A DNA stretch of 64,000 nt, taken from positions 248,001-312,000 of the forward strand of contig NZ_RCCK01000012.1 of assembly GCF_003664035.1 (NCBI RefSeq). Reading direction: 5' to 3'. Source of the DNA: Pedobacter alluvionis. GTDB lineage: Bacteria > Bacteroidota > Bacteroidia > Sphingobacteriales > Sphingobacteriaceae. This document shows positions 49,380 to 50,161 of this stretch, one piece after another (positions within the stretch are counted from its first letter, which is position 1; every line of letters starts with the position of its first letter). The translations under genes and the position numbers were made by a program. The notes below the pieces were generated by a model. That model worked only from the letters and a program-made list of their open reading frames with translations, made no database searches and was not told the DNA's origin.

Positions 49380-49387
49380 TATATTTG
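49380..49387 (+). promoter_or_regulatory. -7 box of the small-protein/tRNA-like unit
   Basis: TATATTTG fits TAnnTTTG, 52 bases before the small ORF at 49440. A 14-bp palindrome AAATCTATAGATTT lies at 49352-49365, around the -33 position, and could be an operator. Confidence 0.35.
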
Positions 49388-49439: not shown

Positions 49440-49601
49440 ATGTCGATTTATTTTCAGTACCCAGCCATAGCTGAATATCCGAAACTCATTTATCCGTTGC
49501 AAACAGAAACTGAAGAACCGATAATTGTAACGGATGAAGATAGTTTAAATAAAGAACAAATTTTAGAGCTGAAAGATTATTTAGCACTAAAGCAGTTATA
49601 A
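49440..49601 (+). CDS. Small acidic protein (53 residues)
   Basis: The frame begins MSIYFQYPAIAEYPKLIYPL and continues with QTETEEPIIVTDEDSLNKEQ and a short helical end, LKDYLALKQL. The composition and the ATG fit a real small protein, and the frame is preceded by a promoter-like box. No signal peptide or membrane segment is present and I recognise no family. Six bases after its stop comes a tRNA-like sequence, and further hairpins follow, so it heads a mixed coding/structured transcript. Confidence 0.5.
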   Translation: MSIYFQYPAIAEYPKLIYPLQTETEEPIIVTDEDSLNKEQILELKDYLALKQL

Positions 49602-49607
49602 AAATAA

Positions 49608-49678
49608 GGCCAGTTGACCGATTGGAAGGTTAGAGTTTCATAAACTCTTTATAATGGTTCGAATCCATTACTAGGCCG
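49608..49678 (+). tRNA. tRNA-Met(CAT)-like gene with bulged acceptor stem
   Basis: The 71 bases fold as a cloverleaf. The anticodon stem AGAGT/ACTCT encloses TTCATAA (anticodon CAT at 49639-49641). The T arm is AATGG-TTCGAAT-CCATT, fully canonical. The D arm ACC/GGT is three pairs with GG in the loop. The acceptor GGCCAGT pairs with ACT and GGCC, but an extra A (49673) is bulged on the 3' side. The 3' end reads GCA, not CCA. It may be a true unusual tRNA, a decaying one, or a tRNA-like regulatory element; Met, fMet or lysidine-Ile cannot be told apart. Confidence 0.5.
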
Positions 49679-49758
49679 CAAAGTGTATCTCATAACACTT
49701 TATCCTGATTCTGCTCAATCAGGCAAGATTTGGTTATCTTATATTTGTTTTGTTGTTA

Positions 49759-49795
49759 GCAAAGGCTATCCGCGATGGGTAGCCTTTACCTTTTA
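49759..49795 (+). terminator. Terminator after the tRNA-like sequence
   Basis: AAAGGCTA(T)CC and GG(G)TAGCCTTT pair around GCGAT and run into ACCTTTT. Two further hairpins lie just before it (CCTGATT/AATCAGG near 49704-49724 and AAGTG/CACTT near 49680), making the region after the tRNA highly structured. Confidence 0.65.
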
Positions 49796-49799
49796 TGTA

Positions 49800-50161
49800 A
49801 ATGCCATGATCCTGAGCACTGCGAAGGATCTCCACCAAATATCCTAACTTTTTGATTATTTAGAAGCGCAGTTTCAGTGCCTATGGTCAGGGCTTGGTCC
49901 TGCTGTTCACTGCAATCTTTTTGGAAATGTATTCACAAATACAATATTGTGTAGCCAAAAAGTATTTCCGTTTCCATCAGGGCTATTTAGCAAATACAGT
50001 GATTCAGAAAAGTAAATGATCTCACAGAAAGTTCTTTCATGAACAAATAAATATTAGTGCTTTAATCTTTTTTCAAAATCTCAAAACATTTTATTTCATT
50101 CGTGGTTATTTATATAATTCACATTATACTAATCTTTTACAGATTAATTTGTTTGGTTTAA
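49800..50161. other. Repeat-rich intergenic region before ldcA
   Basis: A REP-like unit (ATCCTGAGCACTGCGAAGGATC near 49808-49830) is followed by CAGTGCCTATGGTCAGGGC, and an inverted CTTTTTGG/CCAAAAAG pair at about 49918 and 49958. The rest is AT-rich. A perfect terminator stem closes the region at 50162-50191, although no gene is visible before it, so an untranslated transcript is possible. Confidence 0.4.

Follow-up and report, generated by a model that had tools for sequence, protein, structure and literature searches.

The window, by which we mean the whole stretch of 64,000 nucleotides that was analysed, carries a gene for a 53-residue protein and, six bases beyond it, a tRNA-like cloverleaf followed by three hairpins and an intrinsic terminator (Table 1). 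A preliminary description of this DNA had placed a cloverleaf with a CAT anticodon here, behind the small open reading frame (ORF) at this distance, and both the cloverleaf and the spacing are borne out. ARAGORN reports a single tRNA in the 64-kb window, at 49608-49677 on the + strand with a CAT anticodon, and the Rfam tRNA model (RF00005) gives the cloverleaf 43.3 bits against a cut-off of 29 bits. This is the second lowest score among the 48 tRNA matches of the genome, which range from 29.5 to 75.7 bits. The weakest match, at G000:C6:159844-159906, is 63 nt long and scores 29.5 bits.

Direct reading agrees with the preliminary description on the arms of the cloverleaf. The anticodon and T stems contain no mismatch, the T loop is TTCGAAT, and the acceptor strands of the window copy, GGCCAGT (49608-49614) and ACT-A-GGCC (49670-49677), pair fully only if A49673 is bulged. 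The cloverleaf is followed by GCA, not CCA, so the CCA end is not encoded. The minimum-energy fold of the 71-nt cloverleaf (z -2.84; 2/200 shuffles equally stable) has four arms and the bulge, yet its D stem is longer and its anticodon loop has three bases. In the covariation alignments, the window-type RNA has a T stem of five pairs and a 7-bp acceptor with the bulge.

Table 1. Features of the unit, in coordinates of the window
Feature	Position	Strand	Detail	Basis
-7-type promoter box TATATTTG	49380..49387	+		TAnnTTTG match
53-aa ORF MSIYFQYPAIAEYP...DYLALKQL	49440..49601	+		selection, homologues
Cloverleaf, apparently tRNA-Cys-derived	49608..49678	+	CAT anticodon 49639-49641, discriminator G49678	ARAGORN, Rfam, R1, fold
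Bulged A, acceptor 3' strand	49673..49673	+	between pairs 4:69 and 5:68	read directly
Hairpin 1	49681..49700	+	CTCAT in loop	fold of 183-nt RNA
Hairpin 2	49704..49723	+	CTGCTC loop	fold of 183-nt RNA
Hairpin 3	49725..49740	+	AAGAT-TTGGTT-ATCTT	fold, RNAalifold, covariation
ATATTTGTTTTGTTGTTAGC	49741..49760	+	links hairpin 3 to terminator	alignment A1
Intrinsic terminator hairpin	49761..49787	+	AAAGGCTATCC-GCGAT-GGGTAGCCTTT	fold, RNAalifold, covariation

The 183-nt RNA as a whole folds into the cloverleaf, the three hairpins and the terminator (z -3.27; none of 200 shuffles as stable), as had been claimed for the region behind the cloverleaf. The promoter-like box that had been proposed ahead of the ORF is also supported: TAnnTTTG, the promoter consensus of the host's phylum, occurs within 90 nt upstream of the ORF's ATG in 39/40 loci, mostly at about 60 nt, against 5/320 control windows.

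A tRNA-like module next to other hairpins is also what would be expected of a bacterial Y RNA, which imitates a tRNA and is the ligand of a Ro protein. The genome has no match to TROVE (PF05731), which matched in one of 14 control genomes, and no Rfam Y RNA family matched; we rejected this reading, the least credible of those considered. We also rejected tmRNA: the element is not among the genome's eight RF00023 matches, and a normal tmRNA is encoded elsewhere. Directly downstream of the unit, at 49892-49988 on the - strand of the window, lies a match to Flavo-1 RNA (RF01705, 61.4 bits).

The unit and its conservation in Pedobacter

No Pfam family matched the 53-aa ORF. Its median dN/dS, from comparisons with the window ORF, is 0.14 (in the 25 of 35 comparisons that have a finite dS). 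Homologues were found in 31 loci, every one of them in Pedobacter, and a profile search of 399 genomes of the family matched 64, of which 63 are within the genus and the single outsider is weak (E 0.001). An ORF of 52-56 codons is present in 39/42 loci read; it is absent from L055 and L107 by the reading rule used, and in L105 it has 24 codons. In the ORF-bearing loci, the gap between the stop codon and the cloverleaf is 5-10 nt. By these measures, the ORF genuinely encodes a protein and is under purifying selection.

The protein is nearly free of sulfur. Among the 2287 residues of 44 distinct ORF proteins there is no Cys, and there are 14 internal Met; 34/44 proteins have neither, against 76/295 background segments taken from the window's larger ORFs, counts that are not independent since the 44 proteins are kin. 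Twelve weaker ORF matches in the genus (L191-L200, L202 and L203) are mostly MSIYLEFPSIEDYPVY-like with variable ends, and no tRNA was found beside these relatives, which lie in other Pedobacter genomes.

A BLAST search with a 191-base query (E 0.01) gave matches in 66/145 genomes of the genus. In 59 of the 145 the match extends over the cloverleaf wholly or for the most part (in 53 together with the tail, in six without it), and seven genomes have partial matches: G163 (two pieces), G008 (part), and G004, G123, G165, G086, G035 (tail). With R1, a covariance model built from 22 sequences, 58/145 genus genomes reach at least 74 bits and 87/145 fall below, where ordinary tRNA-Cys scores about 62-65. 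In all 30 loci compared for synteny, on named Pedobacter contigs, the neighbouring gene, transcribed divergently from the unit, is the same DEAD-type helicase; downstream of the unit, 27 of these loci share one gene family, which we take to be LD-carboxypeptidase; L107 was excluded from this count because its ORF is broken. The ORF and the RNA appear to form an independent transcription unit. Plasmids gave no DNA match to the unit and phages no protein match; in viral contigs, protein alignment of eight pattern hits gave no relatives, and a single 22-base pattern had no match. We rejected a phage or plasmid origin on the strength of these searches.

To assess the fold, we used alignment A1, built from 42 loci; without two duplicates these give 40 distinct sequences, and loci repeating one contig under another handle had been removed beforehand. 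With this structure 95.8% of the cells are paired and 17 pairs are changed on both sides; neither value is reached in any of 500 shuffles, and sliding the structure by one column leaves four or 10 such pairs instead of 17. In 22 more diverse sequences, 10 pairs are changed on both sides (0/500 shuffles as high), and one of five covariation measures is not above the shuffles. Covariation is seen in the acceptor, anticodon and T stems; in the D stem, A1 shows no pair that has changed on both sides. RNAalifold's own consensus for A1 contains the cloverleaf, hairpin 3 and the terminator, with a covariation term of just -1.61. Hairpins 1 and 2 are missing from this consensus. Changes on both sides are seen in no pair of hairpin 1, five of hairpin 2 and one of hairpin 3.

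The T loop and the GG of the D loop are conserved in A1, and the bulged A occupies the identical place in 37/40 rows. It stays put in L101, L151, L201 and L204 despite changes in neighbouring pairs, and is one pair off in L104 of A1 and in L148 and L150, which lie outside it. Two copies, L105 and L107, are damaged or decaying. Taken together, the alignments show both the RNA fold and the protein to be under selection, at the level of sequence comparison. An Rfam score above the cut-off and conserved stems are the opposite of the absent score and unconserved stems on which the preliminary description's reading would have fallen.

That description had left three options: a functional odd tRNA, a decaying tRNA, or a tRNA-like element used to regulate the small gene. 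A decaying, functionless tRNA gene could account for an Rfam score that is low for a tRNA and for the damage in L105 and L107; it does not fit the covariation, the helicase neighbour in 30/30 loci, the kept bulge or the purifying selection on the ORF. We rejected it for the typical copy, whose stems covary, whose bulge survives pair changes and whose unit and synteny are kept, and regard it as hardly credible. The odd tRNA and the regulatory element both stay compatible with the data because the anticodon is mostly, not always, kept (35/40). The tRNA-Cys ancestry, the status of the ORF as a protein gene and the relatives' bulged tRNA-Cys copies near sulfur genes go beyond what that description could draw on.

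In the tail, positions 49741-49759, ATATTTGTTTTGTTGTTAG, are identical in all 40 rows of A1; 16 of these 19 bases were demanded by the extraction pattern, which excluded none of the 42 loci. A stretch resembling ATATTTGTTTTGTTGTTAG precedes another terminator of the same genome (L002).

Seven further genomes, read as a second Pedobacter group, carry more diverged forms. Six of the seven have a diverged MSIYLEFP-type ORF ahead of the cloverleaf, at other genomic sites; in L151 (G094), no such ORF was found. The anticodon is CAT in L146-L151. The ORF-cloverleaf pair lies upstream of a tRNA-Cys gene in L146, L147 and L152, while L149 (G130) has the order tRNA-Cys, metN, metI, metQ, ORF and CAT cloverleaf, with MetI and MetQ over the NCBIfam cut-off and MetN slightly under it. 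The stretch from metQ to this ORF contains a hairpin resembling a terminator and a box resembling a promoter. In L152 (4329-4472 of the locus, G163), an insert of about 68 nt splits the anticodon loop of the window-type RNA. In G165, the ORF reads into the RNA and stops inside the anticodon loop. Another tRNA-Cys-like CAT gene occurs in L234 (G067) and L235 (G013), with an A1-G72 mismatch by reading and an acceptor without the bulge; no window-type ORF was found with it.

The cloverleaf might be a processing element, at which RNase P and 3' processing would release a short mRNA and an active 3' small RNA made of the hairpins and the 19-base motif. The invariance of these bases ahead of the terminator in A1, the short distance of 5-10 nt from stop codon to cloverleaf, and G004, in which much of the tail is retained with neither ORF nor cloverleaf, all fit this reading. 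It sits poorly with the second group, whose tails differ and in which L146, L147 and L152 have no invariant motif (by reading), and the similar stretch in L002 suggests that the motif may be a general 3'-end feature. Moreover, it leaves the mostly kept CAU loop unexplained, and we hold it to be rather unlikely.

Ancestry of the RNA and the bulged tRNA-Cys genes of relatives

When R1 is applied to the tRNAs of the window's own genome (35 of 47 tRNA loci), tRNA-Cys scores best with 61.5 bits and the runner-up has 41.6. Pairwise scores of the window copy against 33 distinct own-genome tRNAs are ambiguous, at 54 for tRNA-Cys and 51 for the next. L151, L201 and L204 score 76, 68 and 84 against the tRNA-Cys of their own genomes and 48, 50 and 53 against the next tRNA; L104 and L148 score nearest to tRNAs other than tRNA-Cys. 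On these comparisons, the RNA looks like the descendant of a duplicated tRNA-Cys, in which the body is apparently that of tRNA-Cys and the anticodon has changed from GCA (Cys) to CAU (Met). The anticodon loop is TTCATAA in 35/40 rows of A1 and altered in 5/40. The discriminator is G73 in 36/40 window-type sequences; the tRNA-Met species of the window's genome have A73. That genome holds one full copy of the element and, at another site, a 52-base stretch that matches part of the tail. It also encodes a normal tRNA-Cys, and CAT occurs in three further tRNA species.

Extra tRNA-Cys genes with the bulge were found in relatives. Among the matches listed when 399 family genomes were searched with R1, there are at least 30 non-Pedobacter copies of 77-78 nt, and our bulged set takes in all that were listed, 30 in 28 genomes (genera g37 and g25), together with two Pedobacter copies (L287 and L288, in G008 and G143). 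All 32 copies, among the matches listed, have an unpaired A between 4:69 and 5:68, a GCA anticodon and U73, picking copies by length being a choice that favours bulged forms.

Many of these copies lie near sulfur-related genes. A sulfur-related gene is found within 1.5 kb in 18/33 and within 3 kb in 19/33 bulged loci (the 32 plus L332), a count that is partly circular because the sulfur reference proteins were chosen from the bulged loci themselves, and in which many loci are orthologues and the PIG-L and TlpA-type genes are loosely sulfur-related. Leaving out loci with a PIG-L hit alone gives 17/33. The corresponding counts are 0/28 for ordinary straight tRNA-Cys loci (flanks of about 0.7-1.5 kb; one locus is included twice, as L241 and L312, and half come from other families), 3/32 for distant 3-kb tiles of the bulged loci and 1/21 for tiles of the window. 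The ordinary tRNA-Cys of the family occupies one conserved genomic place. The immediate neighbour belongs to the sulfur set in 12/32 bulged copies; twelve to fourteen adjoin other genes, e.g. peptidase-like and dehydrogenase-like ones by reading, and 14/33 loci have no sulfur hit within 3 kb. Neighbours above the NCBIfam cut-off are MetN and MetQ, and those below it are a NifS-type cysteine desulfurase, a serine O-acetyltransferase, and CymR-like and SfnG-like (monooxygenase) proteins; sulfatase, FGE and PIG-L are above the Pfam cut-off.

These gene neighbourhoods show that the relatives' extra tRNA-Cys genes with the same bulge are often near genes for sulfur acquisition. No sulfur gene was found near the 31 window-type units at the helicase site (about 3 kb per side; short contigs entire), nor near L146-L148 and L150-L152, so that L149 is the sole case. 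The sulfur connection is a clear pattern, if a partly circular one, among the relatives with GCA; at the window copy it is thin.

How the two types are related is less certain. Mean identity of the window type is 0.63 to the bulged and 0.57 to the straight copies, and a tree built before genus g39 was added separates window-type, bulged and straight copies into three clades. In a tree of 73 nt, a length that carries little phylogenetic signal, eight straight tRNA-Cys(GCA) of g39 nest within the window type, the joint clade having a support of 0.995. Given this nesting, the bulge may have had two separate origins, or a single one followed by its loss in g39. The nesting copies are L265 and L333-L339. 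In L265, the tRNA-Cys gene lies between aminotransferase-like and cytochrome-oxidase-like genes, by reading.

We also searched 395 genomes of the class with a second model, R2, which represents the bulged type, and stricter filters, reading the 20 returned loci and other 77-nt matches among the matches listed. The model separates the forms poorly: straight tRNA-Cys scores 83-92, and the bulged copy of G180, a member of the family, scores 90.7. Of the 25 loci read, 24 are straight, and 19 of these lie beyond the family; the single bulged locus is L314, in G180. Among the matches listed, the 19 extra-family loci read include no bulged copy, and such copies may still occur there. In G323, L291 (13110-13186) is a second match to R2 in the same contig piece, at 101.2 bits.

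Possible roles of the RNA

ARAGORN labels the element a plain tRNA-Met, and one role would be that of an accessory decoding tRNA, i.e. an extra tRNA-Met or a lysidine-type tRNA-Ile on a tRNA-Cys body, perhaps aminoacylated and put to use on ribosomes under a condition such as sulfur limitation. The TTCATAA loop of 35/40 copies, the CAT of L146-L151 and the conserved T loop and D-loop GG would suit such a tRNA, and the bulged relatives retain GCA and U73, which form the Cys identity set (PMC9976931). A plain tRNA would have no need of the conserved tail and ORF, however, and the window's genome already has three other CAT tRNA species. Furthermore, 87/145 genus genomes stay below 74 bits, and where the loop is altered (5/40) or split (L152) the remainder persists. 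We consider a decoding role unlikely; it and the processing element are the chief competitors of the explanation favoured below.

A second possibility draws on the small protein. In peptide aminoacyl-tRNA ligation (PEARL), the 50-residue TglA receives Cys from Cys-tRNA at its C-terminus (PMC9016710), and the 53-aa peptide could likewise be a scaffold with the tRNA as donor. Two genes of the genome match Lant_dehydr_N; one of them belongs to an apparent lanthipeptide cluster, and no ligase-like ORF was noticed beside the unit in the ORF list or the context clusters, or in the family search of the ORF and the helicase. Such a carrier role is very improbable. The sole Lant_dehydr_N gene of the unit's contig lies about 22 kb from the unit (L232, G000 C3:310000-329000) and adjoins putative precursor, cyclase-like and transporter-like ORFs, which read as a lanthipeptide cluster.

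We tentatively favour, while holding it somewhat more apt to be wrong than right, a tRNA-derived RNA that is tied to the supply of Cys and Met, with methionyl-tRNA synthetase (MetRS) as its likely partner and the 53-aa protein co-expressed. The sulfur link, the charging and the mechanism are what we infer for the window copy, and the points that follow run from the safest to the least safe. First, ordinary decoding would not depend on the RNA, since a normal tRNA-Cys and three other CAT tRNA species are encoded in the genome. Second, the CAU loop would make the RNA a ligand or substrate of MetRS. According to PMC9976931, a tRNA-Val variant bearing CAU is charged by E. coli MetRS, as tRNA-Met is, and the thrS mRNA comes under MetRS control once its anticodon-like sequence is replaced with the Met one. 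Third, the bulge may distort the acceptor/T-arm helix, the part read by EF-Tu, and so bar the RNA from normal EF-Tu-dependent elongation. Fourth, if MetRS binds the RNA and elongation excludes it, it would follow that the RNA could act as a charging-status reporter or decoy coupling Met/Cys supply to gene expression. As co-expressed partner it would have the 53-aa protein, which is nearly free of sulfur.

A wider form of this explanation, which we regard as doubtful, takes in the relatives. The Sphingobacteriaceae-type bulged tRNA-Cys-derived RNAs would be non-housekeeping sensors or effectors of sulfur amino-acid supply, located in or beside sulfur-acquisition operons, and the Pedobacter RNA would have been re-aimed from Cys to Met when its anticodon GCA became CAU, and would have gained the nearly sulfur-free 53-aa protein as a partner.

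We know of no use of T-boxes in the host's bacterial group. If the explanation is true, gene expression would here be coupled to Cys and Met supply through a tRNA-shaped RNA, and an anticodon change would have switched that RNA from one sulfur amino acid to the other. Should the sulfur link not hold, a bulge kept alongside U73 and GCA would offer a test case for the tolerance of synthetases and EF-Tu.

Relation to known systems

A search of the open-licence PMC literature, covering titles and the starts of abstracts, found no description of the element. Its T loop and anticodon-loop cloverleaf are shared with canonical elongator tRNAs, which have an unbulged 7-bp acceptor whereas the window element has A49673 bulged. 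Among the tRNAs of its genome, canonical tRNA-Cys (GCA, U73) is the best-fitting body, both with R1 and in the comparisons of the less derived copies; the element differs from it in the CAT anticodon, the bulged acceptor, the hairpin tail, the upstream ORF and a discriminator that is mostly G. As in tmRNA, a tRNA-like part and an ORF are joined in one unit, although tmRNA has no anticodon arm. The bulged tRNA-Cys of relatives shares with the window element the unpaired A between 68 and 69 and the 7-bp acceptor.

Among control elements, those of the thrS type likewise have a tRNA-like fold joined to an mRNA, and CAU can direct MetRS to them (PMC9976931). Here, in contrast, no synthetase gene is recognised alongside, and a full cloverleaf stands 3' of the ORF. 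The allo-tRNAs (8/4 and 9/3), as reviewed in PMC7609411, also have a non-canonical acceptor domain, whereas the window element is 7/5 with a bulge and apparently tRNA-Cys-derived.

The nearest described structure that we found is the selC* tRNA-Cys with a T-stem A bulge, whose 8/4 isoacceptors carry A51a bulged in a 4-bp T stem (Mukai et al. 2017, reviewed in PMC7609411). Each is a minor variety of tRNA-Cys in which a single A of the acceptor/T domain stays unpaired, and each has anticodon variants. They differ in the place of the bulge and in architecture: in selC* tRNA-Cys, as the review describes it, the A lies in the 4-bp T stem beside an 8-bp acceptor, whereas here the acceptor has 7 bp, the A lies between 68 and 69 and the T stem has 5 bp. 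The selC* tRNA-Cys combines U73 with GCA or UCA, the window element has G73 with CAT, and the bulged relatives have U73 with GCA in 32/32 copies. Set beside these systems, and judged by its sequence, the element is a real, selected, tRNA-Cys-derived RNA that shares one unit with a small protein gene.
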